DNA from: Bacteroidales bacterium
GTDB lineage: Bacteria > Bacteroidota > Bacteroidia > Bacteroidales > UBA932
Assembly (NCBI GenBank): GCA_017429205.1
Contig: JAFRPH010000002.1
Location: 50,721 to 114,720, forward strand
Direction of reading: 5' to 3'
DNA: 64,000 nucleotides
Shown: piece by piece, positions 8,810 to 21,697 of the stretch
Layout of the letters: every line of letters begins with the position of its first letter
Numbering within the stretch: the first letter of the stretch is position 1
Notes under the pieces: model-generated
Database searches by the model: none
What the model was told of the DNA's origin: nothing
What the model saw: only the letters and a program-made list of their open reading frames with translations
Translations under genes and position numbers: made by a program

Positions 8810-10249
8810 CTATTTCACGGGCGTGAGGCCCAGCTCGGCGGCCTTTTCGCGCATCAGCGCGTCGGCGGCCTCGAAGGTGTTGGGAATGTCGCCGTCCAGG
8901 ATGGCGTTCTTGACGCACTCCTTGATCTGGCCGATGGTGTTGCAGGGACCGATGCCGAAGACTTCCATCACATAGTCGCCGGTGATGGGGTTCTTCCAGT
9001 TGCGGATCTTGTCCTTTTCCTCCACCTCCACCAGCTTCTCCTTCACCAGCTGGAAGTTGCGGTGCAGGCGGGCGACCTTCGCGGGGTTCTTGGAGGTGAT
9101 GTCCGCGTGGCAGAGGAGCATGAGGTCGTCGATGTCGTCGCCGGCGTCGAACAGGAGCCGGCGCACCGCGGAATCCGTCACCTCGTCGTCCACGAGGGCG
9201 ATCGGGCGCAGGTGCAGGTTCACCAGCTTCTGCACGTACTTCATTTTCTCGTTCAGCGGCATCTTCAGGTCCTGGAAGATCTTCGGGACCATCCGGGCGC
9301 CGATGACTTCGTGCCCGTGGAAGGTCCAGCCCTGGCCCGGCGCATAGCGCTTGGAGGCGGGCTTGCCGATGTCGTGCAGGAGCGCGGCCCAGCGGAGCCA
9401 GACATTCGGCTCGCCTTCCTCGCTTTCCGCCACGTTGTCAAGCACTTGCAGGGTATGGGAGAAGTTCTCCTTGTGGCCCTTTCCCTCGACGGTTTCCACG
9501 CCCTTGAGTTGCACCAGCTGCGGGAGGAACTGCTCCAGCAGGCCGGTTTCGTCCATCAGGCGGAACGCCATCGACGGTTTCCGGGTGACGAGCATCTTGT
9601 TCACCTCCTCCACGATGCGTTCGGAGGAGAGAATCTTCAGGCGGTCCTTCATCGCCCGCATCGCTTCCAGCGATTCCGGGACGATGGTAAAGGCGTGTTC
9701 GGGGGTGGAGAGCTGCGCGGCGAAGCGGATGGCGCGGAGCATGCGCAGCGGGTCGTCGCTGTAGGTCTGTTCGGGCTGGAGCGGGGTGCGGATGATGCCG
9801 GCCGCGAGGTCGCGGATGCCCCCGAAGGGATCGACCAAGGCGCCGAAATCCTCCTTGCACAGGCTGAACGCCATCGCGTTGATGGTGAAATCCCGCCGCA
9901 GCTGGTCCTCTTCCAGCGTTCCGTCCTCCACGATGGGCTTCCGGGAATCGCGGTTGTAGGACTCCTTGCGCGCGCCCACGAACTCCACCTCGATGCCCTT
10001 GTAGTGCAGCATCGCGGTGCCGAAGTTGCGGAACACGCTCACGTTCGTATGGACCTTTGCCGCCACGGCTTCCGCGAGCGCGATGCCGCTCCCCTCCACG
10101 ACGATGTCGATGTCCGTGTTGGGACGGCCCAGGAAGCAGTCGCGGACATAGCCGCCGATGACGAAGGCGCGCACCCCGAGGTCCGCCGCCACGTCCGACA
10201 CCAGCTTGAAGACCGGCGCGTCCAGGTATCCTTCCGTTATCGTCGACAT
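8810..10249 (-). CDS. cca: CCA tRNA nucleotidyltransferase with HD domain
   Basis: A 479-residue class II nucleotidyltransferase. It has GGYVRD and the metal-binding TDIDIVV near residues 25-50, RRDFTINAMAFSL after them, and an HD phosphohydrolase domain (LLHDIGKP) in the second half. It adds or repairs the 3' CCA of tRNAs; the two tRNA genes in this window do not encode CCA, consistent with need for it. The ATG at 10249 lies inside the end of the upstream HsdR_N-like gene (13-base overlap). Confidence 0.93.
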   Translation of the reverse strand: MSTITEGYLDAPVFKLVSDVAADLGVRAFVIGGYVRDCFLGRPNTDIDIVVEGSGIALAEAVAAKVHTNVSVFRNFGTAMLHYKGIEVEFVGARKESYNRDSRKPIVEDGTLEEDQLRRDFTINAMAFSLCKEDFGALVDPFGGIRDLAAGIIRTPLQPEQTYSDDPLRMLRAIRFAAQLSTPEHAFTIVPESLEAMRAMKDRLKILSSERIVEEVNKMLVTRKPSMAFRLMDETGLLEQFLPQLVQLKGVETVEGKGHKENFSHTLQVLDNVAESEEGEPNVWLRWAALLHDIGKPASKRYAPGQGWTFHGHEVIGARMVPKIFQDLKMPLNEKMKYVQKLVNLHLRPIALVDDEVTDSAVRRLLFDAGDDIDDLMLLCHADITSKNPAKVARLHRNFQLVKEKLVEVEEKDKIRNWKNPITGDYVMEVFGIGPCNTIGQIKECVKNAILDGDIPNTFEAADALMREKAAELGLTPVK

Positions 10250-10650
10250 AGCATATCCTCCCAGAGCGGGGCCTTTTCCACGAAGACGAACCCGTCCGCG
10301 TGCCGCTCGAACATAAAGGTCTTCAATCCGTTGGTAATCACGATGTAACGCACGTCCAGCGCGTTGTTGTAGCGGATGGCCTGGTCCACCACCTCCTGCG
10401 TCAGCTCCACCTCCGGCCGCTTGCATTCGACCACCAGGAGCGGATGCGCCTGCCGGTCATAGACGATGAGGTCGGCCCGGTAGTCGAGGCCGTTCCAGGA
10501 CAGGGAGACCTCGCTCATCATCATGTGCTCGGGCACCTTCATCCCCTCGTGCAGGACGGAGATGAACCACTGCCTGACCTCCTCCTCGGGGGTCAGCCGG
10601 ACGCTCTTTTTCCGGAGCGGGTCCCAAACCATATCGCTGTGAATCGGCAT
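10237..10650 (-). CDS. HsdR_N-like (type I restriction enzyme R N-terminal) nuclease-fold protein
   Basis: A 137-residue stand-alone protein with the PD-(D/E)XK core seen in HsdR N-terminal domains: RADLIVYDRQAHPLLVVECKRPEVEL (Asp, then ExK as ECK), followed by QAIRYNNALDVRYIVITNG. There is no helicase, specificity or methylase subunit around it, so it is not a restriction system. It sits at the head of the cca-xerC-hpf operon, a common place for this family in Bacteroidota. A -7 box TATCTTTG (10657-10664) ends only 7 bases before the ATG. Function unknown. Confidence 0.75.
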   Translation of the reverse strand: MPIHSDMVWDPLRKKSVRLTPEEEVRQWFISVLHEGMKVPEHMMMSEVSLSWNGLDYRADLIVYDRQAHPLLVVECKRPEVELTQEVVDQAIRYNNALDVRYIVITNGLKTFMFERHADGFVFVEKAPLWEDMLCRR

Positions 10651-10672
10651 TCGCTGCAAAGATAATAAAAAC

Positions 10673-13054
10673 CTACAAACCGGGCTCGATCAGGGAATGG
10701 CTGCGCGGCAGCATCACCCGGATCCGCGCCAGGTTTTCGGGGTCCAGATTGGAGCGGGAGAAGGGCACCGGCCGGGTGCAGGGGTCGTCCCCCGGATTCC
10801 GGCCGTACTTGAACTCATAGGTGAGCTTCCCGTCCGGAGTCAGGCAGGCGGGGTCGATTTCTGCAGTCGGGACGGAGATGAACGCATCCACCGCCACCGT
10901 CCCCTCTTCGGCCAGCAGGCCGTCCTCCCGGAGGAGGCGGTAGCACTCGACGGCCGTGTCATGGGCCGGGTCGATGAAGACGAGGTCCTCCGCCAGGAGG
11001 TCCCGGTAGGGGTAGTCTCCGTCCTTCCGATAATCCCGGAGCTCGCGGACCACCTTCTGCATCGTCTCCAGATGGAAAGGATAATGCGTACAGCCCAAGA
11101 TAATCGCCTTGAGCGGAACCGTGCTGCCGCTCAGGCGGTGCCGCTCCACGAGCGAGACCAGGTTGAAGCGGGCGTAGTTGGCGGCGGCGTTCAGCTGGAT
11201 GCCGTCCTTGGATCCCAGCAGGGCGTGCCGCTTCGTCTCGAAACGATAGACGGGAAGCAGGTACGCCTTGATGTCGGCGTCGCCGGTGCCGATGCGCGGT
11301 CCCCGGTAAGACGCCCGCGGCGCCTTCAGGCGCACGTCCACGAAATCCGGTTCCCCGTCCACGGCCTCGGCGAAGCCGTACCCGCTCTGGCTCACGACCG
11401 TCATCCGGCCGCCGACGCCCTGTTCGGCCGCCAGGGCCTTCAAGGTGCGTTCATAGGCGCCCGAAGAAATCGTTCCCTGGGTGGCGAGCACGCCGATGGC
11501 GAAAGGCTGTTCCTCATCGGCCAGGGCCTTCAGGGCCGCCTTGGAGCCGGCCTCGATGACCCCGATGACCTTCACGCCGTCGCCGGCCTCGTCCAGCTTT
11601 TTCCGCACCAGGTCCAGCCCGTAGGCCGTCGCCGTGTTGCAGCCGATGACGAGAATCTTGCAACGGCCCTTCCAGCCGGAGGGTTCCTTCTCGGCGGCAT
11701 CCCGGCTATACCGGTCGCCCATCAGGAAATCGGCGTCGGCGACCACCAGTTGCCGCAGGTAGTCCGCCTTGCCGGCCGCGTCGTAGGTGCCGTAGGGCAT
11801 ATTGGCCTGGTCGGCCAGGTACTGGAACTTTTCCCGGCCCAGGTCCGGCACGCCGTCCGCCCGCTCGGCCCCGGTCCCGTTGTCAAAGGCGTCCAGATCC
11901 AGCAGCTTTTCCAGCACGGTCAAACCGCCCGTCCCGGAATCGAACACGCCGATCGCCTGCTCCGGCGCGGGAACCTGCCCGGAAAGGCGCAGGGCCTGGC
12001 GGATGACCGGGAGAACGAGGTCCACGTAGCGCTGCATGCCGAGGTCCGTCAGGTGGATCGTATCGGCGGTGGTCTCGCCGTCCGGCATCGTCATCGCCCA
12101 GGCGGGGATGTAGAAGATCAGCTTCTCCCCCTGGCTCTGCAGGCGTTCGAAGAGGGCCTTCTGCTCGAAGTTCTTGTCCTCCACCTCCTTCCGGATGGCG
12201 CTGTCGAACAGCGTGTGCGGGAAGATAACATCTTCGATGAAGATCACCGGCACGTCGGGATGCGCGTCGCGGAGGATGCGGAAGAATTCCTCGCCGTGCT
12301 CCTTGATCATCGGGGCGTAGGCGTTGGGCGCGTAGTCCAGCACATACACGGCCGGATCGGGCACGGAGGCCATCAGGTGGGCGATTTCCGGGTCCAGCAG
12401 GGCGTTCCCGCTGAAGCCCAGGTTGATGACCTCGCGGTCCAGGGCGCGGGAAATCATGTTCGTATGGGCCATGCCCGGCCGGCTCGCGCTGCACCCTTGC
12501 AGGATGCTGGTGCCGTACATCACGACCGGACGTTCCGTGCGCGGCGTCCGGGCAACCGGCTGCTCCAGGGAAGCCCCCTCGTCGACACCGATTTCGAGGG
12601 AATCGACCCCGTCATACAGCGACAGGTAAAGCATATACTCCCGCCACTCCGGGGTCATATTCTTGACCAGGCAGTCGGTGCTCGTCTTCTCCTGCGAAGG
12701 CCGTCCGACGCCGGCGGGACGCCAGACGCCGTCGACCAGGATGTACAAGTCCAACCCCCGGACGCCCGTCGGATTCATGTTCGACAGCCAGCTCCCGTAG
12801 GTCGATGTCCACCGCGCGTGAATGGCCGTGGAGTTGGACCGGAAGCGGATGTACAGGCCCGCGCTCTGGGTGCCGAGGCGCCAGACGGCGGGGCGGGAAA
12901 CGCCCTCGAGGGCGGCCGGAAGCCGCTGGTAGCGGGTTTTCGTCGCATCGGACGCCTTTCCGTACACGGGGAAGGCCGATGCGTCCGTGAACACCTGGGC
13001 GGACAGGTTCAGCGCCAGGAAAGCGGCGGCGAGGAGGGTCAGGATCTTTTTCAT
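10673..13054 (-). CDS. Exported SGNH hydrolase fused to a glutamate/aspartate racemase domain
   Basis: A single 793-residue frame. It starts with a signal peptide (MKKILTLLAAAFLALNLSAQ), then a jelly-roll-like N-terminal domain (about 25-165) and an SGNH hydrolase (about 175-355: GTSILQGCSAS nucleophile block, NLGFSGNALLD, and DTIHLTDLG with the Asp/His pair). From about residue 363 it becomes a MurI-type racemase: AIGVFDSGTGGLTVLEKL, MPYGTY, IGCNTATA (about 473), IGVLATQGTISSGAYERTL and LGCTHYPFH (about 655), both catalytic cysteines present. The racemase half is about 430 residues, longer than usual MurI. ATGA overlap with the upstream acyltransferase gene makes it the last gene of the lipid operon. 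An in-frame ATG at about 12036 could give a cytoplasmic racemase alone. Confidence 0.85.
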   Translation of the reverse strand: MKKILTLLAAAFLALNLSAQVFTDASAFPVYGKASDATKTRYQRLPAALEGVSRPAVWRLGTQSAGLYIRFRSNSTAIHARWTSTYGSWLSNMNPTGVRGLDLYILVDGVWRPAGVGRPSQEKTSTDCLVKNMTPEWREYMLYLSLYDGVDSLEIGVDEGASLEQPVARTPRTERPVVMYGTSILQGCSASRPGMAHTNMISRALDREVINLGFSGNALLDPEIAHLMASVPDPAVYVLDYAPNAYAPMIKEHGEEFFRILRDAHPDVPVIFIEDVIFPHTLFDSAIRKEVEDKNFEQKALFERLQSQGEKLIFYIPAWAMTMPDGETTADTIHLTDLGMQRYVDLVLPVIRQALRLSGQVPAPEQAIGVFDSGTGGLTVLEKLLDLDAFDNGTGAERADGVPDLGREKFQYLADQANMPYGTYDAAGKADYLRQLVVADADFLMGDRYSRDAAEKEPSGWKGRCKILVIGCNTATAYGLDLVRKKLDEAGDGVKVIGVIEAGSKAALKALADEEQPFAIGVLATQGTISSGAYERTLKALAAEQGVGGRMTVVSQSGYGFAEAVDGEPDFVDVRLKAPRASYRGPRIGTGDADIKAYLLPVYRFETKRHALLGSKDGIQLNAAANYARFNLVSLVERHRLSGSTVPLKAIILGCTHYPFHLETMQKVVRELRDYRKDGDYPYRDLLAEDLVFIDPAHDTAVECYRLLREDGLLAEEGTVAVDAFISVPTAEIDPACLTPDGKLTYEFKYGRNPGDDPCTRPVPFSRSNLDPENLARIRVMLPRSHSLIEPGL

Positions 13055-14121
13055 AGGAGGGGTCCGGCGTAGATTTTCACGACAGTGTTCCGCAATTCCT
13101 CCGGAACGGCGGCGAGATGGGCTTCGAAGGCGGCCTTGTCCCGGGGCGTGTAGCCCTCGGACGAATTGCCTTCCAGGTAGTCCGCGGCGATGCGGTTGTT
13201 CGGCCAGATCCGGTACCCGGCCCGGATGCGCCGGTCGATGAGGGCCGCCGTCTCGCGGCAGAAGGTATTGACGGGAAGGTCCTGCCAGGGCGCGAGGTCC
13301 TCCGCCGTCACCGGGTCGCAGACCGTATAGTGGACCCGGCCCTTGGGCTGGGTGATGCCGGTGAGGATGCTTTTCAGGTCCTCCCCGGGCTTCTTTTCGT
13401 AATAGCGGTCCCGCTCCAGCGCGGTCAGCTCCGCCGCCTTCAGCACGTCGCAGGGCTCCCATTCGTAGGAAACGGCGAGCGGCACGATGTGCAGGTCCAG
13501 GATGTCGCCCGCCAGCGAGAACATCTTGATGATGCCCTGGTCCGTCGCGTCCACCCCGTCCTTCGTCCGCCCGTTCCGCTGGGCGATCCAGACGGACTCC
13601 CCTTTCTCGGTGATGGTCCACCGGATATACTCCGACAGGCGCACCGAACTGGTCAGGAACGCCCGGGGAGAGGAGACCGTCGACGGCCGCTCCACCCGGA
13701 ACATCTTGTTGGACTTTCCGAAATCCACCACCAGGCCGCCCTGCATCAGGTTCGCCCCGAAGGTGATCTCGGACGTCCGGAGACCGGCGCGGCGCAGCAG
13801 CACTTGCAGGAAAGCGGCGTCCATCACGATGTCGCGGTGGTTGGAGACGAAGAGATAGCTCACCGCAGGGTCCAGCTTCTCCATGCCCTCCACGGTCACT
13901 CCGTCAGTCGTCTTGTCCATCAGGGCTTCCACCACGGGCATCATGAAACGGACTTGGAACTCCTCCACGTTCCGGCATGAAACCACGGAGGAGACCACCT
14001 CCTCGAACGGTTTTTCCGGGAACAGATAGCCGCACACCACCCGGAACTCGGGATAGGCGACGAGACGCCGCATCGCGGCCGGAATCTCCGCGTCGGTATA
14101 GGGGCGGATGTCGTCAAACAT
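13051..14121 (-). CDS. PlsC-like 1-acylglycerol-3-phosphate acyltransferase family protein
   Basis: A 356-residue acyltransferase-fold protein. The catalytic block reads YLFVSNHRDIVMD (His95), with five rather than four residues between His and the final Asp, a variant form; WIAQRNGRTKDG takes the place of the FPEGTRS substrate-binding motif. There is no signal peptide, so it acts at the inner face of the cytoplasmic membrane. It overlaps the PaaK-like ligase by 8 bases and the SGNH-racemase gene by ATGA. It is a second acyltransferase in the operon besides the MMPL-fused one and may use an unusual acceptor. Confidence 0.75.
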   Translation of the reverse strand: MFDDIRPYTDAEIPAAMRRLVAYPEFRVVCGYLFPEKPFEEVVSSVVSCRNVEEFQVRFMMPVVEALMDKTTDGVTVEGMEKLDPAVSYLFVSNHRDIVMDAAFLQVLLRRAGLRTSEITFGANLMQGGLVVDFGKSNKMFRVERPSTVSSPRAFLTSSVRLSEYIRWTITEKGESVWIAQRNGRTKDGVDATDQGIIKMFSLAGDILDLHIVPLAVSYEWEPCDVLKAAELTALERDRYYEKKPGEDLKSILTGITQPKGRVHYTVCDPVTAEDLAPWQDLPVNTFCRETAALIDRRIRAGYRIWPNNRIAADYLEGNSSEGYTPRDKAAFEAHLAAVPEELRNTVVKIYAGPLL

Positions 14122-15412
14122 GCTTGGGTCGGTTGTCGATGAATTTCACGGGTTTGCGGGACTTGGCGGGATACAGGATGGCCGCCACCTCCGCCGGAGG
14201 GCAGATCTCGATGCGGGGCGCCACCCGGATGCGGGAGCGGAAGCGGTCCTTGAGGTCCTTCACGGCGTCGAACTCCGGCTGGTACTTGAGGCCCAGCTTC
14301 ACGAGCACGTCGTCCGTGCCGGCGTCGCTTTCGTCGACGATGACCACGTAGTTCTCCACATAGTCCGCATTGTCCAGCACGTCGTTCACGGCCGGCGGAT
14401 AGAGGGTGGTACCCTTGAGCTTGATCATATTGTTTTTGCGGCCCACGAGCGGGGTCAGGCGGTACGACCAGCGGCCGCACTTGCACTGTTCCGTGACCTT
14501 CGCGGCCATGTCGCCCGTGCGGAAGCGCAGGAGCGGCATTCCCTCCACGCCCAGGGTTGTGACCACGATCTCGCCCACTTCCCCGTCGGGCACCGGCAGG
14601 TTGTCCTCGCCGATGATCTCCACGATGATGAGCTCCGGATGGACGTGTCCGCCGCAGCCGTACGGGCACTCGGAGAAGGTCGCGCCCATCTCGGTGGAGG
14701 AATAGGTCGCGAACAGCTCCACGTCCCATTTCTCCTTGATCCGGCGGCCCAGGAGGTTCAAGTCGAACTGCTGGTCCCGCAGGCCCTCGCCGATGCCGAT
14801 GATCCGCCGGACCGAGGAATTCTTGTAGTCGATGCCGTGCTCCTCCGCGTACTGGATCAGGCGCAGGATGAAGGACGGGACGCACATGATGGTGTCCGGC
14901 TTCAGCCGCTGGATGGTGTCCCACTGCAGTTCGGGGATGCCGTTGCCCACGCGGATGATGCTGGCGCCGAGCTTCCGGATGCCCAGGAAGTAGGCCAGGC
15001 CCGCCATGAAGCGCTTGTCGATGGTGGTCATCAGCTGGACGATGTCCCCAGGCTTCACGCCGGCGCACGCGAAGGATTTCTCCTCGTTGAACGCGAGGCG
15101 GTCCAGATCCTTGTCCGTGCAGCCGAAGGTCACAGGGTCCCCCAGCGTGCCGGAAGTCGTGACGTAATCCACGATCTTCTCCTTGGGGCAGCACAGGAAA
15201 TCGTCGTTGAACAGCTGCAGGTCCTTCTTTTCGGTGAAGGGAATCTTCACCAGGTCCTCCAGCGTCCGGATCTTCGCGATGTCGATGTGATAGCTCTCGA
15301 ACATCCGCTGATAGTACTTCGAATGCTCGGCCAAGTATTGCAGGGCCTCCGCGAGGCGCCCTTCCTGATAGGCCTTGATGGCTTCGGGCCTTTCGAACTC
15401 AATGTCTGCCAT
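14114..15412 (-). CDS. PaaK/coenzyme F390 synthetase-type acyl-adenylate ligase
   Basis: A 432-residue phenylacetate-CoA ligase-family enzyme. The AMP-binding loop is TTSGTLGDP (85-93); YSSTEMGATFSECPYGCGGHVHPE and CKCGRW supply the family's cysteine/histidine metal site, and RTGD and GRKNNMIKLKGTTLYP are the later adenylation motifs. It activates an aryl or acyl acid with ATP. In flexirubin and aryl-polyene clusters such ligases activate the aromatic starter or tail; here the substrate is unknown. It overlaps both neighbours by 14 and 8 bases. Confidence 0.85.
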   Translation of the reverse strand: MADIEFERPEAIKAYQEGRLAEALQYLAEHSKYYQRMFESYHIDIAKIRTLEDLVKIPFTEKKDLQLFNDDFLCCPKEKIVDYVTTSGTLGDPVTFGCTDKDLDRLAFNEEKSFACAGVKPGDIVQLMTTIDKRFMAGLAYFLGIRKLGASIIRVGNGIPELQWDTIQRLKPDTIMCVPSFILRLIQYAEEHGIDYKNSSVRRIIGIGEGLRDQQFDLNLLGRRIKEKWDVELFATYSSTEMGATFSECPYGCGGHVHPELIIVEIIGEDNLPVPDGEVGEIVVTTLGVEGMPLLRFRTGDMAAKVTEQCKCGRWSYRLTPLVGRKNNMIKLKGTTLYPPAVNDVLDNADYVENYVVIVDESDAGTDDVLVKLGLKYQPEFDAVKDLKDRFRSRIRVAPRIEICPPAEVAAILYPAKSRKPVKFIDNRPKHV

Positions 15413-16259
15413 AGTCGATCTCTGCTATCCAATCGAGGAACTCGGCCTGCCAACGGGCCGTTTCCTCCGTAAATTTCTCCTTGTCGGCGCCGAACCCGTG
15501 CCCACCCACGTGGTACCGGATGGTGCGGTGCGGCACGCCCTTCTCCGTCAAGGCGGCGTCCAGCAGATCCGCATTGTGCGGGTCCACCACCGGGTCGTCG
15601 TCGCATCGGAGCAGGAACACGGGCGGCGTATCAGGCCTCACGTGGCACTCCAGCGAGAGGGAGTCCCGCATCACCTGATTGCCGGTCCTTCCGTCGCCCA
15701 ACAGACCGCGCCGGGAACGGGCGTGGGTGCTGGGATCGCGCATGGACACGACCGGATAGATCGGCGCCACGAAATCCGGACGAAGGGAGGTTCCCGCCGC
15801 GCGCTCCGTGAAATCCGTCCCGAAAAACTCCGCGGCCGACATCACCAGGTGACCGCCGGCGGAAAAGCCCATCGCCCCCACAGGACCGTCGTACTGCCGC
15901 CGGACCAGGGTGATGGCCCGCTGCAGGTCCGCGATCATGTCCGGATGGCGGTTGCCGCCGAACACGGCCCGCGTATGGAACGTGAAATTGAACCAGCCGC
16001 CCGTGCGGTACAGGAGCACATAGGCGGCAAAGCCCTCTGAGGCGAGCCACTCGCCTACCAGCTCGCCTTCCCCCTCCTTGTCCAGCCAGAAATAGCTGCC
16101 GCCCGGGCACACGACAACGGCGGCCTTCGGCTCGCCTTCCGGCAGATAGGCCTTCAGCGTGGAACCGGCGTGCACGGACGTGCCCTCCCAGATCTTCACG
16201 GTCTGGGCCTGCAGGGCCGTGCAGAGCACGAGGAAAAGAAGGGTCAGGATTCTTCGCAT
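15399..16259 (-). CDS. Exported alpha/beta hydrolase (BD-FAE/acetyl-esterase type)
   Basis: A 286-residue esterase. The start at 16259 gives a clean signal peptide (MRRILTLLFLVLCTALQAQ). The oxyanion loop CPGGSYFWLDKEGEG (51-65), nucleophile elbow GFSAGGH (Ser133), Asp in RCDDDPVVD and His in VGGHGFG complete the triad. Such enzymes remove acetyl or feruloyl groups from polysaccharides, but its place in the lipid operon (16-base overlap with the MMPL fusion, 14 with the ligase) suggests it may trim or transfer an acyl group on the operon's product in the periplasm. Confidence 0.8.
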   Translation of the reverse strand: MRRILTLLFLVLCTALQAQTVKIWEGTSVHAGSTLKAYLPEGEPKAAVVVCPGGSYFWLDKEGEGELVGEWLASEGFAAYVLLYRTGGWFNFTFHTRAVFGGNRHPDMIADLQRAITLVRRQYDGPVGAMGFSAGGHLVMSAAEFFGTDFTERAAGTSLRPDFVAPIYPVVSMRDPSTHARSRRGLLGDGRTGNQVMRDSLSLECHVRPDTPPVFLLRCDDDPVVDPHNADLLDAALTEKGVPHRTIRYHVGGHGFGADKEKFTEETARWQAEFLDWIAEIDYGRH

Positions 16260-19200
16260 CTCCCACAAATATAAGTCAAATTCTCCGGAACGCCCGCACA
16301 GCGGACGGCCGTCAGGTACTTTTCTTCCTCCGCCTCATACGCCGTCACCCGCATCTCGGGATGCGTCAGGGCCACCAGAAGGGCATATACGCCGCAACCG
16401 GCTTCCGGAATGACGAGCGATTCGCCCGTCAGGGCATCGACCTGGGCGAGGGTTTCCGGAGTCAGGACGCGGCGGCATTCCACATCGGCGTCGTGTCCCT
16501 TGTACAGGTACTGGTAGCGGACGAAAGTGGCGTTGTAGGCCGCAGTCTCGCATTCCCGGCGAATGCGGGCGTACTCCCGCTCGTAGTCGTGGCGGACCTT
16601 CCGCGTGAACGCGGCGATGTCGCCTTCCGGCACCTCGAACCGCTCGCCAATCTCCATATACAGCCCGGCCTTCCGCAGGAGGAAGTCATGCTTGGGCAGG
16701 GCGTATCCGAAACCGTGGATATACAGCGGCAGGATGGGCAGTCCCAGTTCCCGGGCCGAGACGAAGGCGCCCCGGTGGAAACGCTGGATCCGGCAGTCCT
16801 GGCTCCGCGTCCCTTCCGGGAAGATGACGATGGAATAGCCCCGCGCGACGAGGTCTTTCATATGGGCCAGGTTCTTTTCCAGCCCTTCCATCACCGGATA
16901 GAACTCCGCCTTGCGGATCAGGTAGCCATAGAACGGGCTGTTCCAGACCCATTCGTTCGTCAGGAGGATGACCTTCGGGTGCAGGGCGATGATGGGCAGG
17001 ATGTCGAAATGCGACTGATGGTTGCAGATATACACGGCCGGCTTGGAGAAATCCTCCCCGTGCGGGTTGGAAAGCGTATACGGACAGCCCGGAATGGCCT
17101 TCATCGCCAGCTGGGCCGTCCTCATCAGGACGCGGCGGTACTTCTCCCGCTTGCGCGGCGTCGGACCGCCCAAGAACAGGAAGAAGGTCCATATGGTCAG
17201 CGCCAGCATGGCCAGCAGGAACACGACAAAGATATACCCGGTCCGGAGGGAACGTCCGAGCGTCCAGGCCACCTTGCGCGGCTGGCCTTTTTTCGTCGTC
17301 AGGAAGCGGAACACCAGCGGCGGCAGGTAGTAGGCCATCGCCACCACGGTGAACATGCCCACGATGGTCACGGCCGCCAGCGACCGCAGGGCCGGATGCT
17401 TCGCCACGATGAGGGCGCCGATGCCGATGAACATGATGAGGGCCGACAGGACCACGGCGTTTTTGAACGACCGCAGGATCTTCTTGCCCGTCGCATATTC
17501 GTACATCAGCCCCTCGGTGATGAAGATGGAATAGTCGTCTCCCTGACCGAAGATGAACGTGGCCAGGATGATGTTGACGATATTGAACTGCAGGCCGAAC
17601 AGGCGCATCGTCCCGAGAATCCAGATCCAGCCCACCGCCAGCGGCAGGAAGGCGGTGACACCCATCGTCAAGCCCAGGGACAGGCACAGGAAGAAAAAGA
17701 CGATGACACTGCACAAAAGCCCGATCCGGTCGAAATCCTCCGACAGCATCCGCGCCAGCGTGCCGGACACGTCGTCCTGCGTAAAGCAGAACGCCCCCTC
17801 AGGCAATGCCGCCCGCAGTGCCTCCACCGCATTCCGGGCTTCTACGTCATTCCCGGCTTGACCGGGAATCTCCTTCACCTTCAAGTAATTCACCACCTGC
17901 ACCTTCTCCTCCCCCGGCAGGTACATCGCAGTTCCCAGCGTGCCGGTGATCGGTGCGAAAAAGTCCACCTCCTGCACCGTCCATTCTTCGTCCAGCAGGT
18001 CGAAGAAAGGCTGGAAGGCGTGGGCCGTGAAACCGACCTTCAGGCCGGCGTCGATGATGCGGTCCGACAGGTCGGGACGGGCCTCCAGGAAGGCGTTCCA
18101 GCGGGCGATGCGGGCCGCCTGCTCCTTCTTCGAAGGCAGGAAAGTGCCGAGGCCAGAAGCGTCCTGCAGTAGCGGGGCGAGCGCTTCGTTGCACTGCAGC
18201 GCTTCCTCCGCCGTTGCGCCGGACGCCACCACATACACGGTCGACGCCCCATCGGCCGAAGCGCCCATTTCTTCCAGAAGGGCGAAACCGCGCTCCTGCT
18301 CCGGCGTCATATAGTTGATGTGGTGCATGTCGGCGTCGAACGAGATGCCGCGGCTGAGCCACCAGAGGACGGCCGTCACGGCGAGGAAGCCGAGGAAAAC
18401 CCATCTGCGGGCCTTCGGGCCCAGGTGGATGTGGCGGTCGAAGTCCAGCTTGACGGTGTTCCGGGGCCGGGAGGTCGCCGGCACGAGAACCGGCAGGAAC
18501 ACGAGCACGAAGAGGATCGTCCCCACCAGCATCATCGCGCCGATGAAGCCGAAGTCGTGCAGCGCCTCGGCCTTCAGCAGAAGCAGCGACAGGAAGGCAC
18601 CCACGGTGGTGATGTTGCCCACCAGGAGCGGATTGACCTGGTCCGCGAGGGCCTTGCGCTTGTCGGGCTGGTATTTCAGGTGGTCCACATAGTGGAGCGG
18701 ATAGTTCACGGCGATGCCGATGATCATCGACCCGATGCCCAGCACGATCAGCGACACCGAGCTCTTGAACAGGGCGATGATCCCGAGGGCGAACAGGGCG
18801 CCGGCGAGGATGGACACGAGAATCCAGCAGACGTCGGTGATGCGTTTATAGCTGAGCCACAGGACGATGCAGATGAGGATCGCCGCCAGGGCGAGGGCCA
18901 GGAAGGAGTCTTTCTTGATGCGGGAGGCATTCTCGACGGCCACCTCCGGACCGCCCGTCGAGGTGATGCGAAGGTCCGGGAACCGGGCCGCCGTCCGCGC
19001 CTTGACCGTGTCCGTCAAGGCTTTCAGTTCCGCATTCCGGCCGGATTCGGTGCTGCCGAAGGGCGAATTGAACAGGACGACGCCGGTCCGGCCGTCGCCC
19101 GTGAACAGGAAGCCGTCCTCCACCCGGCTTTTCGTCGCCGGATTCAGCGCCTCCAGCCGCTGCAGAACCGGAGAGAACAAGCCTAACGGGTCACTGCGGA

Positions 19201-19708
19201 GATACTGGGAAATGAAGCTCGAGCCCATAGAGTAGAAACTCCGCTCGTTTTCCGCCATCCGCTCCTCCACGTAGCCGGGGACAGCCAAGAGGGAGTCCAT
19301 CCGCGCATAGTCGGCCTCCGTCAGGAAATAGGGCCAGTGGGTGCGGATGAAGCCGAAGACCTCCTCCACGGCGCCCGCATCGGCGGCGACTTGGAGGTCC
19401 GGGACGAGCGCGGCGGTATCGGCCTCGGCCCAGAGGTCGCCGAAAGCCGCCATCGCGTCCATCACGCGGTCGGGATCCTCCTCGTCGGACTCGAAGAAAA
19501 TGGCCATCCGGTCCTGCCCGAGGCGGTTGTAGACGTCGGAATAGCGCTTGCTTTCCTCGCTCTGCGGCAGGAAAGCGGAAATGTCTTCCTCGTAATGCAT
19601 CCGCAGGGCGGACAGGGTGCAGAGGCCCAGCAGGACGCCCATCAGGGTGATGGCCAGCCCCTTGCGCGCCGACAGCCAGTCGTAAATATGCAAGACGAGC
19701 TTTTTCAT
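16244..19708 (-). CDS. MMPL/RND exporter fused to PlsC acyltransferase and methyltransferase-like tail
   Basis: An 1154-residue fusion. Residues 1 to about 800 are an MMPL-type RND exporter with two repeats of membrane segments and periplasmic loops (FGQGDDYSIFITEG in the second). Then comes a PlsC acyltransferase with canonical NHQSHFD (about 896) and FPEGTRS (about 964). The last 100 residues contain PEAGCGVYALLVALTHPEMRVTAYEAEEEKY, resembling motif I and the acidic loop of an SAM methyltransferase, but too short to be a full domain. This architecture is known from aryl-polyene/flexirubin clusters of Bacteroidota. Residues about 612-620 (EIPGQAGND) are the translation of a dispersed repeat (17846-17871). 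ATGA overlap with the GT2 gene. Confidence 0.85.
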   Translation of the reverse strand: MKKLVLHIYDWLSARKGLAITLMGVLLGLCTLSALRMHYEEDISAFLPQSEESKRYSDVYNRLGQDRMAIFFESDEEDPDRVMDAMAAFGDLWAEADTAALVPDLQVAADAGAVEEVFGFIRTHWPYFLTEADYARMDSLLAVPGYVEERMAENERSFYSMGSSFISQYLRSDPLGLFSPVLQRLEALNPATKSRVEDGFLFTGDGRTGVVLFNSPFGSTESGRNAELKALTDTVKARTAARFPDLRITSTGGPEVAVENASRIKKDSFLALALAAILICIVLWLSYKRITDVCWILVSILAGALFALGIIALFKSSVSLIVLGIGSMIIGIAVNYPLHYVDHLKYQPDKRKALADQVNPLLVGNITTVGAFLSLLLLKAEALHDFGFIGAMMLVGTILFVLVFLPVLVPATSRPRNTVKLDFDRHIHLGPKARRWVFLGFLAVTAVLWWLSRGISFDADMHHINYMTPEQERGFALLEEMGASADGASTVYVVASGATAEEALQCNEALAPLLQDASGLGTFLPSKKEQAARIARWNAFLEARPDLSDRIIDAGLKVGFTAHAFQPFFDLLDEEWTVQEVDFFAPITGTLGTAMYLPGEEKVQVVNYLKVKEIPGQAGNDVEARNAVEALRAALPEGAFCFTQDDVSGTLARMLSEDFDRIGLLCSVIVFFFLCLSLGLTMGVTAFLPLAVGWIWILGTMRLFGLQFNIVNIILATFIFGQGDDYSIFITEGLMYEYATGKKILRSFKNAVVLSALIMFIGIGALIVAKHPALRSLAAVTIVGMFTVVAMAYYLPPLVFRFLTTKKGQPRKVAWTLGRSLRTGYIFVVFLLAMLALTIWTFFLFLGGPTPRKREKYRRVLMRTAQLAMKAIPGCPYTLSNPHGEDFSKPAVYICNHQSHFDILPIIALHPKVILLTNEWVWNSPFYGYLIRKAEFYPVMEGLEKNLAHMKDLVARGYSIVIFPEGTRSQDCRIQRFHRGAFVSARELGLPILPLYIHGFGYALPKHDFLLRKAGLYMEIGERFEVPEGDIAAFTRKVRHDYEREYARIRRECETAAYNATFVRYQYLYKGHDADVECRRVLTPETLAQVDALTGESLVIPEAGCGVYALLVALTHPEMRVTAYEAEEEKYLTAVRCAGVPENLTYICGRCEES
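17846..17871. repeat. Palindromic dispersed repeat inside the MMPL coding region
   Basis: GTCATTCCCGG...CCGGGAATCT: 26 bases, with arms able to pair, sharing both termini with the repeats at 32154-32180, 36068-36094 and 57051-57087. It is in frame and read as EIPGQAGND. Confidence 0.75.
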
Positions 19709-20415
19709 CGGCCCAGGAGCATCCGAGGATAACCATAGACCAGGGCGAGCACGCACAGGACGGTGTTCAGCACGCTGATCCGGAAGAAATCGGCGAAGGG
19801 CCGGAAATGGGACACACGGTCCTCGGGATAGTACACCCGCACCGGGACCGGGACGATCCGGAGGTTCTTCCAGGCGGAGAAGACGAGGAGCGCGAGTTCC
19901 GCCTCATACCGGGCGGTCAGGAGCTTCAGGGACGGGAGGTCCTCCAGCGGATAGACGCGGAAACCCGTCTGCGTATCGGGGAGCTTCCGTCCGGTCTGGA
20001 CGGTGAACCAGAAATTCGAGAACTTGTTCGCGAAGGTGTTGCCCGAAGGCATTCCCTCCGCCGTGAGGTTGCGGCTGCCGATGACCAGCGTCCGCTCCCC
20101 CGCCGCGGCGACAAGCGCCGGGATGTCGGCGGGATCGTGCTGGCCGTCCGCGTCCAGCGTCACCGCGAAGCGGTAACCCTGCTTCCGCGCGGCCTCCAGG
20201 CCGGTCTTGAGCGCCCGGCCCTTGCCCCGGTTGGTTTCGTGCCGCAAGACCCGGATGTCCAGGTCCTTCAACCGTTCCTGCGTATCGTCCGTGCTGCCGT
20301 CGTCCACCACGAGCACCGGCAGTCCCTGCCGGAGGACGCCGCGGACCACGTCCGCGACCGTCCCGCCGTTGTTGAACGTCGGGATGACGGCGCAGATATG
20401 ACGGGGATCGATCAC
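19705..20415 (-). CDS. Family 2 glycosyltransferase (dolichyl-phosphate-mannose-synthase-like)
   Basis: A 236-residue GT2. The start is taken at GTG 20415, which overlaps the stop of the dehydratase gene as GTGA; an upstream TTG (20442) is possible but less likely. ICAVIPTFNNGGTV begins the GT-A fold, then VLVVDDGSTDDT, LDADGQHDP (metal-binding DXD variant) and a hydrophobic C-terminal segment (FRISVLNTVLCVLALVYGYPRML) that would tether it to the membrane. In aryl-polyene-type clusters a GT2 attaches a sugar to the lipid. The donor is unknown. Confidence 0.85.
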   Translation of the reverse strand: MIDPRHICAVIPTFNNGGTVADVVRGVLRQGLPVLVVDDGSTDDTQERLKDLDIRVLRHETNRGKGRALKTGLEAARKQGYRFAVTLDADGQHDPADIPALVAAAGERTLVIGSRNLTAEGMPSGNTFANKFSNFWFTVQTGRKLPDTQTGFRVYPLEDLPSLKLLTARYEAELALLVFSAWKNLRIVPVPVRVYYPEDRVSHFRPFADFFRISVLNTVLCVLALVYGYPRMLLGR

Positions 20416-20783
20416 GCCACGGACAGGCTCATTTTGGCACAAAGGGTTTCGCCGGAAAGGATTTCCACCGTCCGCTCGCTCCCTTCCCCGCCCAGGTTGA
20501 AACGGAGTTCCGTCGCCTCGGACGGGATGATGGGACTCGTGAACTTGATGTTCTTCGCCCCCACGAGCCGGACACTGTAGTCATGGGCTACTTCCCCTTC
20601 GTCATGGCCGACCTGATCGGCCATCTCTGCGATCAGCTCCAGCGCAATCTCCACCAGGCACACGCCCGGCGTGATGGGATAGCCAGGGAAATGCCCCTCG
20701 TAAACGGGACTGTCGGGCAGCAGGCGGATGGTGGCGCCGGCGGCGTCGACCGAGACGAGTTCGTAGAGGATTCCCTGCAGCAT
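20412..20783 (-). CDS. Hotdog-fold 3-hydroxyacyl-ACP dehydratase-like protein
   Basis: A 123-residue FabZ/FabA-like protein. The start at 20783 is one base after the LolA stop (TAAGATG); the family motif EGHFPGYPITPGV follows in the first third, with catalytic His in HFPG. The partner Asp/Glu of FabZ (normally on a later helix) corresponds to Glu in LVEIALELIAEM. It could dehydrate 3-hydroxyacyl-ACP chains, or as in several flexirubin loci serve as a modified dehydratase. No acyl carrier protein or ketosynthase is encoded in this operon. Confidence 0.78.
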   Translation of the reverse strand: MLQGILYELVSVDAAGATIRLLPDSPVYEGHFPGYPITPGVCLVEIALELIAEMADQVGHDEGEVAHDYSVRLVGAKNIKFTSPIIPSEATELRFNLGGEGSERTVEILSGETLCAKMSLSVA

Positions 20784-20784
20784 C

Positions 20785-21306
20785 TTACTGTTTTTCAAAG
20801 AGTTTGGCATCCACCGGCCGGTTGGTGACGATGTCCTTGAATTCCAGCAGCGTCCAATCGCCGTCCGGCGTGATCAGGAGGGCGGAACGAAGCTGGAGGG
20901 ACTGCTTGTCGGCGCGGACGACGATTTCCCGGAACAGGGACTTGAGGTCCCGGCGGACCGGCACCAGTTTCACGGCGAGCTCCTCCCCTTCCAGGGCGGT
21001 CGCCGTGAAGTCCTTCTCCGCGGGCATCCGGAAGCGGCGTCCGGCGATGGCCAGTTCCCCGCTGGAGACGAACACGCTCGGATAGGGCTTGAGTACCTCC
21101 CAGCGGATGCGGTCGGGGCTCGCGAGCACCATCCGGCCTTCGCTCTTGAGGTCCTTGGCGAGCATCGAACTGTGCCGCGTCTGGGTGAAGGACGCCTGCA
21201 GGGTCTCGAAGGTATTGGCCGCCTTCAGCCGGTCCAGGATGTTCTCCTGGGCCGATGCGGCCAGCGCGAGCGCCAGGCCGGCGAATATGAGGAGCCAGCG
21301 TTTCAT
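20785..21306 (-). CDS. LolA-like outer-membrane lipid/lipoprotein carrier
   Basis: A 173-residue periplasmic carrier with signal peptide MKRWLLIFAGLALALAASAQ. The LolA pattern is clear: FETLQASFTQTRHSSMLAKDLKSEGRMVLASPDRIRWEVLKPYPSVFVSSG and a C-terminal LLEFKDI strand. It is not next to other lol genes; a dedicated LolA copy beside an MMPL exporter is the aryl-polyene/flexirubin arrangement, where it is thought to ferry the lipid to the outer membrane. ATGA overlap with the flippase gene upstream. Confidence 0.85.
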   Translation of the reverse strand: MKRWLLIFAGLALALAASAQENILDRLKAANTFETLQASFTQTRHSSMLAKDLKSEGRMVLASPDRIRWEVLKPYPSVFVSSGELAIAGRRFRMPAEKDFTATALEGEELAVKLVPVRRDLKSLFREIVVRADKQSLQLRSALLITPDGDWTLLEFKDIVTNRPVDAKLFEKQ

Positions 21307-21656
21307 CGGGCGATCAGGACACAACCGGAAATGACCAGGAACACGCCGATCCACTGCACCCAGTTCACCTGCTCGTGGAACACGAGGATGGCGGCCACCA
21401 TCCCGAACGCATAGCTCAGGCAGGAAAGCGGATAGGCGATGCTGAAGGGGAAATGCTTCAGGATGTACAGCCACAGCACCGTGGCGACGCCGAAGGAGAT
21501 GCCGCACAGCAGGAACCACCAGTTGGTGAGCTGGCTCTTGAAGAAAGACCAGGTCCAGCTGAAAGGCCCTGACGAGGCCAGGCCCAGCTTCAGCAGGACC
21601 TGCCCTCCGCAGAGGAACACGCTTTGCGTGACGGCAAGGATGACGAGTTTCCACAT
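21303..21656 (-). CDS. Small EamA/SMR-type membrane transporter (ArnE-like flippase)
   Basis: A 117-residue protein with four membrane helices (about 3-22, 36-55, 62-82, 93-115), the size of half an EamA transporter, like ArnE/EmrE. The start at 21656 (MWKLVILAV) matches the first helix. It is the first gene of the nine-gene operon, preceded by a good promoter at 21664-21697. Members of this fold flip lipid-linked sugars or export cations; the company of GT2, LolA and MMPL favours a lipid-flipping role. Confidence 0.75.
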   Translation of the reverse strand: MWKLVILAVTQSVFLCGGQVLLKLGLASSGPFSWTWSFFKSQLTNWWFLLCGISFGVATVLWLYILKHFPFSIAYPLSCLSYAFGMVAAILVFHEQVNWVQWIGVFLVISGCVLIAR

Positions 21657-21663
21657 AATTATA

Positions 21664-21697
21664 CAAAAATACGGAATCCTGCCCACAAATGCAAAAA
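21664..21697 (-). promoter_or_regulatory. Promoter of the nine-gene lipid operon
   Basis: Minus-strand -7 box TATTTTTG (21664-21671) with TTTG (21692-21695) 20 bases upstream. The -33 element overlaps the U-run of the preceding terminator. Confidence 0.65.

Follow-up and report, generated by a model that had tools for sequence, protein, structure and literature searches.

The window analysed here is a 64,000-nucleotide stretch of a Bacteroidales bacterium genome (contig JAFRPH010000002.1, positions 50,721 to 114,720), and its minus strand carries at 10673..13054 a single gene that joins a putative secreted SGNH hydrolase to a domain of the glutamate racemase (MurI) type. The frame opens with an ATG at 13054 and closes with a TAG at 10675–10673, spanning 793 codons plus the stop without an internal stop. 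A first-pass annotation of this DNA had described one uninterrupted frame of signal peptide, SGNH hydrolase and racemase without giving a strand, and that description holds for the minus strand. Residues 1–20 (MKKILTLLAAAFLALNLSAQ; 12995..13054) read as a Sec signal peptide; the lipobox cysteine that follows the signal of a lipoprotein is absent, the earliest cysteine of the fusion being residue 128. Next come a GxDLY domain (residues 21–162, 12569..12994; E 6.9e-43, 146.4 bits against a cut-off of 27) and a Lipase_GDSL_3 (SGNH hydrolase) domain (residues 174–352, 11999..12535; E 6.7e-53, 180 bits against a cut-off of 27), the latter with GTS (S183) and DxxH (H334) motifs whose roles in an SGNH hydrolase we assume. 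With both Pfam domains above cut-off, the N-terminal half is, by its sequence, an SGNH hydrolase of the GxDLY/Lipase_GDSL_3 type. Its solved relative by sequence (4lhs_A) likewise represents the PF14607 + PF14606 architecture, but has 343 residues and no racemase, and other SGNH relatives carry glycoside hydrolases or other domains.

Residues 365–793 (10676..11962) form the second domain, which Pfam, NCBIfam, a homologue search and a predicted fold together assign to an exported type of glutamate racemase. Asp_Glu_race matches residues 463–547 (E 3e-9, 37.4 bits against a cut-off of 31); at E up to 0.01, the Pfam scan of the whole fusion returned three families only (GxDLY, Lipase_GDSL_3 and Asp_Glu_race), all above their cut-offs, which bears out the domain composition first proposed. 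A pyridoxal phosphate (PLP)-dependent domain of the alanine racemase (Bsr) type was not among the matches at that threshold. BsrV, which we take to be PLP-dependent and of another fold, differs in this from the window domain, which matches cofactor-independent Asp/Glu racemases. The domain contains the VFDSGTGG (11924..11947) and DQANMPYG (11789..11812) motifs, and both cysteine motifs named in the first-pass annotation are present: C472 of CNTATA (GCNTAT; 11639..11641) and C655 of CTHYP (GCTHYP; 11090..11092), by homology the first and second catalytic cysteines. The pair of catalytic cysteines with the DSG and PYG motifs is the hallmark set of MurI.

Cytosolic MurI/RacE (TIGR00067; PDB 1zuw) resembles the domain in its two-cysteine active site, its DSG, PYG, CNTA and CTHY motifs and its predicted fold. 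The structure prediction suggested earlier gave a MurI-like model consistent with a glutamate racemase fold (the underlying alignment included one multi-domain row, P0213), and by sequence the solved relatives of the domain are glutamate racemases such as 1zuw. NCBIfam glutamate racemase models cover residues 365 or 368 through 547, each scoring below its cut-off. Unlike MurI, the family to which the domain belongs appears to be exported, scores under the equivalog cut-off, usually stands beside an ordinary MurI and has about 170 extra residues (432 against about 254–259 aligned in the predicted-structure comparison). By sequence the fusion also departs from the cytosolic, signal-free character of MurI, with a signal peptide of its own and export signals on its relatives.

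To describe this family, the racemase part was searched alone, giving 3322 matches among 7996 candidates scored, of which the best 120 were taken. All but two of these (P0003 and the fragment P0004) are proteins of 436–504 residues in which Asp_Glu_race is the only listed Pfam domain. A simple classifier of our own labelled P0005–P0122 (118 proteins) as lipobox-type in 112 cases, signal-peptide-like in 2, transmembrane (TM)-like in 2 and none in 2; for P0123–P0241 (119 proteins) the corresponding counts were 66, 33, 9 and 10, with one protein lacking the motif. When 84,980 species were scanned, each represented by a single genome, 508 relatives were confirmed; the best 80 loci were lipobox-type (71), signal-peptide-like (5), TM-like (2) or unclassified (2). 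One of the five signal-peptide-like loci is the fusion of RUG253. This call is weak, as are those for the fused rows generally (L068 among them), the classifier having scanned the entire upstream partner there. Under a stricter earlier lipobox pattern 51 of the 80 loci qualified, and two rows called none (L144 and L145) look signal-peptide-like by eye. The same classifier applied to 23 canonical MurI loci was negative for 21 and TM-like for 2. Judged by these signals, relatives of the racemase domain are mostly exported, chiefly as lipoproteins.

We then compared the distribution of the family with that of MurI. In the window's taxonomic family, TIGR00067 matches lie above cut-off in 129 of 149 genomes, and a long racemase (taken as a best E ≤1.1e-45, by our reading of the family-genome search) is found in 78 of 149. 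Of these 78, 72 also have a MurI above cut-off; the others are G004, G006, G027, G068, G126 and G148, some of them incomplete genomes. The nearest genome compared, G001 (RUG253), has an ordinary MurI at 197.3 bits, which bears on the count of other murI genes called for earlier. Outside the window's family the long form is patchy: a strong match occurs in 6 of 295 genomes drawn at the order level (three of them from the window's own family, with a seventh, weak match) and 8 of 395 drawn at the phylum level, G001 included. Named hosts of relatives include Sphingobacterium, Rufibacter, Pseudoflavitalea and Chryseosolibacter, and P0239 is named for Pendulispora albinea (Myxococcota). Source names read "glutamate racemase" or "aspartate/glutamate racemase family protein".

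The strongest clue to function comes from other fusion partners. A second search, confined by design to longer proteins (about 520–1655 residues) and hence not a basis for frequencies, gave 399 matches. Among the best 120 the partners are Glt_symporter (10), Amidohydro_3 (10), PF00144 serine hydrolase (8, in one of which the racemase is not listed as a Pfam match), the D-glutamate cyclase-like GLUCM-like_C (2), PF06826 transporter (1), M14 peptidase (1), PF03372 (1), PF09825 (1) and SGNH (1, P0003). The racemase is N-terminal in all ten symporter fusions and in seven of the eight PF00144 fusions; it is C-terminal in all ten Amidohydro_3 fusions and in those with M14, PF06826 and SGNH. In a rescan of five fusions the partner was above cut-off in all five and the racemase in four (L144 reached 26.6 bits against 31). 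In a tree of 70 rows, built by a quick method with Shimodaira–Hasegawa-like approximate likelihood ratio (SH-aLRT) support only, the fusions are scattered over several places, and the SGNH fusions (three rows) cluster with the free-standing lipoproteins L070 and L073 (support 86 for these five rows and 98 for a 16-row set).

Several of these arrangements deserve individual mention. In Prevotella-type loci (L117:8806-11664, L122:9833-12670 and L132:9836-12658) the exported racemase and a Na+/glutamate symporter (Glt_symporter) form one protein, and we regard such fusions as the strongest functional hint found. They (L122, L132, P0123–P0132) share the exported racemase domain with the window and differ in their partner, a C-terminal Na+/glutamate symporter. 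The racemase is appended to Amidohydro_3 in P0223 and nine others, and one such fusion is named at source as an N-acyl-D-aspartate/D-glutamate deacylase/glutamate racemase. In P0204 (confirmed by the rescan) and P0241 the partner of the exported racemase is a C-terminal domain resembling D-glutamate cyclase (PF14336). Among separate genes, the one following the racemase in L126 (Mediterranea) is a Glt_symporter, and an N-formylglutamate amidohydrolase gene lies just before the racemase gene in L146 (Rufibacter).

Neighbours were also counted at 83 loci of free-standing genes, three of them second copies and many cut short. The commonest are an exonuclease (54), an RlmI-like gene (53), an S13 D-Ala-D-Ala carboxypeptidase (45) and an aspartate aminotransferase-like gene (44), followed by PurM-like (35) and type III glutamine synthetase (27) genes. 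Pfam was checked for one example of each of four gene kinds; the RlmI and aminotransferase names are our assumption. At these 83 loci the exonuclease, RlmI-like and PurM-like neighbours give no functional lead.

Comparison with sister species indicates how the window gene may have arisen. G001 encodes a 793-residue counterpart that is 95% identical across residues 1–793, and it is the only one of 101 genomes of the genus with a match over the full length, in agreement with the first impression of an uncommon architecture. The same fusion was sought more widely and recurs in the P0003 database cluster, where both parts are present at 97% identity in 793 residues and 193 member sequences. In three sister species (G502, G443 and G507; 3 of the 101 genus genomes) the SGNH part is found at 92, 91 and 86% identity, respectively, and the racemase is absent. 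Gene order from GT2 to bglX is the same in all three, with the CCA gene of G443 matching in two pieces. The unfused SGNH proteins have 360 residues and end in LRKA(R/H)K; in the window and G001, LSGQVPAPEQ and the racemase take the place of the final SGNH codons and stop, and a TATCTTTGCA box and the next gene follow. The junction (residues 358–364, the GQVPAPE side of this linker; 11963..11983) coincides with the end point of the unfused genes. From the window and these four genomes we infer that a gene for a secreted esterase gained at its 3′ end, cleanly and in frame, a racemase coding sequence lacking a signal of its own. That the three sisters lost the racemase is the less simple account, because their SGNH ends are clean. 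Set against its lipoprotein relatives, the comparison shows a racemase that appears to have kept its export route while swapping the vehicle: a secreted esterase now stands in for the lipoprotein signal. The fused gene is under purifying selection: between the window and G001 the ratio of nonsynonymous to synonymous substitution rates (Ka/Ks) is 0.119 for the whole gene, 0.081 for the SGNH part and 0.171 for the racemase part, and 0.055, 0.175 and 0.248 for three flanking genes. A further copy, P0243, is unfused with a shifted frame.

From the sequence and its relatives we infer the racemase activity, substrate, direction and location of the fusion protein. We propose, at even chances, a secreted esterase-racemase whose exported MurI-type domain mainly converts D-glutamate to L-glutamate for L-selective uptake. 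In this rumen-type, Candidatus Cryptobacteroides-like bacterium the SGNH esterase would provide the signal peptide of a secreted two-domain protein, and the C-terminal domain would be a glutamate racemase whose family members are normally lipoproteins. Acting beyond the cytoplasmic membrane, this domain would interconvert D- and L-glutamate by the two-cysteine mechanism of MurI, drawing D-glutamate from peptidoglycan or other D-glutamate-containing material, and the main direction would be towards L-glutamate, which an L-selective transporter would then take up. Consumption of D-glutamate is preferred because relatives are fused to Na+/glutamate symporters, amidohydrolases and D-glutamate cyclase-like domains. 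According to PMC12502697, an Escherichia coli D-glutamate auxotroph was obtainable only with gltS mutations, and in Vibrio fischeri mutant gltS alleles let the auxotroph grow on less D-glutamate, from which its authors infer more permissive transport. An exported racemase would offer L-glutamate to the transporter, and the need for a gltS mutation would therefore be removed. The broader proposal, to which we give a little under even chances, is that extracytoplasmic cofactor-independent glutamate racemases, mostly Bacteroidota lipoproteins, serve D-glutamate salvage beside or fused to an L-selective symporter, the lipoprotein signal having been exchanged for a secreted esterase within one genus in the lineage of the window.

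Several points weigh against the role proposed for the fusion. The racemase domain misses the TIGR00067 equivalog cut-off (75.1 against 146.65 bits), and two catalytic thiols may risk oxidation outside the cytoplasm. Most of the genes commonly found near free-standing members have housekeeping roles and carry little weight as evidence, and the S13 D-Ala-D-Ala carboxypeptidase seen at 45 of the 83 loci, a divergent one, suits wall work equally with salvage. The racemase is absent at the same place in the three sister species, and in the single-member P0242, which spans the junction, the frame of the racemase is lost directly after DSGTGG. Finally, the SGNH module is itself promiscuous: among longer proteins it gave 959 matches, and in the best 120 (P0244–P0360 among them) it is joined to many other enzymes, by Pfam GH3, GH97, GHL10, GH20, trehalase, flavin adenine dinucleotide (FAD) oxidoreductase, nucleoside hydrolase and others, the family names being partly our assumption. 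Both halves being promiscuous, the SGNH–racemase pairing may be incidental, an insertion accident rather than a working pair.

Among the alternatives, it is unlikely, though to be taken seriously, that the substrate of the long family is a different one, such as a modified glutamate, a glutamyl peptide or some other amino acid, or that the family has ceased to be a racemase, its roughly 170 additional residues reshaping the active site. The extra length over MurI and the sub-threshold TIGR00067 score agree with such a change, as does the loss of motifs in a related G001 lipoprotein (L004:1300-2418). This 373-residue, lipoprotein-like relative matches nothing in Pfam at E up to 0.01 and may be a non-catalytic paralogue; weak matches similar to it occur in other genomes of the genus.

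It is rather unlikely that the exported racemase works mainly from L to D, supplying envelope D-glutamate for peptidoglycan editing, release or signalling. Racemases are reversible, the S13 carboxypeptidase often lies nearby, and exported racemases with a comparable role have been described: PMC12502697 presents the periplasmic broad-spectrum enzymes BsrV/BsrF and RacK as racemases with a secretion signal, BsrV and RacK producing D-amino acids for the wall. The fusions to symporters, amidohydrolases and D-glutamate cyclase-like domains point instead to D-glutamate consumption. A suggestion of the first-pass annotation, that the enzyme might edit an amino acid on the operon's lipid, finds no support in the three sister species, which share the gene order and lack the racemase.

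It could also be that the fusion arose by neutral accident or is being lost, its racemase half having no useful role. Its presence in one of 101 genus genomes, the lost frame of P0242 and the many partners of both modules would fit this reading; the Ka/Ks of the racemase part and the intact frames in the window, G001 and P0003 make it improbable. The first-pass annotation had also offered an in-frame ATG (12035..12037, codon 340), 25 codons ahead of the racemase domain, as the start of a separate cytosolic racemase. This is very improbable: the ATG falls within the SGNH coding region and also occurs in G502, G443 and G507, whose SGNH genes are unfused; an ordinary MurI is encoded in the nearest genome; and among relatives that are exported a cytosolic form would stand out as an exception. 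The alternative offered with it, a periplasmic racemase, gains from the 71 lipobox-type relatives among 80 and from the ordinary MurI of G001. The same annotation had named homologues with the two parts always in separate genes as refuting evidence; the parts are indeed largely separate, but export is not refuted, since the separate racemases are exported too. An assembly joint is disfavoured to the point of being negligible, since a second, separate genome carries the fusion at 95% identity and the cluster of 193 members does so at 97%; together with the Ka/Ks values, these matches also make a chance frame unlikely.

The usual view of MurI is that it works in the cytosol, in wall synthesis. 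No description of an exported MurI-type racemase was found in the literature searched, a weak negative given that most subscription journals lay outside its coverage. The exported branch is kept beside cytosolic MurI in 72 of 78 genomes and fused to symporters or D-glutamate-related domains in different lineages, and appears to be an overlooked family that may help salvage D-glutamate, a cell-wall amino acid. If this is correct, some bacteria handle D-glutamate outside the cell membrane, possibly adding a step to peptidoglycan turnover and D-amino-acid use in the rumen, the gut and other habitats. For annotation, a Bacteroidota gene labelled "glutamate racemase" need not be a wall-synthesis enzyme.

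The fusion is the last gene of a minus-strand run. Its start is overlapped by the stop of an acyltransferase gene (13051..14121), and the remaining upstream genes (14114..21686) encode, in order of transcription, EamA-like, LolA, FabA-like, glycosyltransferase family 2 (GT2), MMPL with acyltransferase, BD-FAE-type esterase and AMP-binding proteins. The run at 13051–21686 resembles an aryl-polyene or lipid export cluster. Downstream, the TATCTTTGCA box (10655..10664, minus strand), presumably a Bacteroidota −7-like element, is kept ahead of the next gene in the unfused sister genomes. That gene (10237..10659, minus strand), which directly follows the SGNH gene in the unfused genomes, encodes a free-standing HSDR_N_2 protein of 140 residues, corresponding to the N-terminus of a type I restriction R subunit, and holds a conserved place beside the CCA gene.
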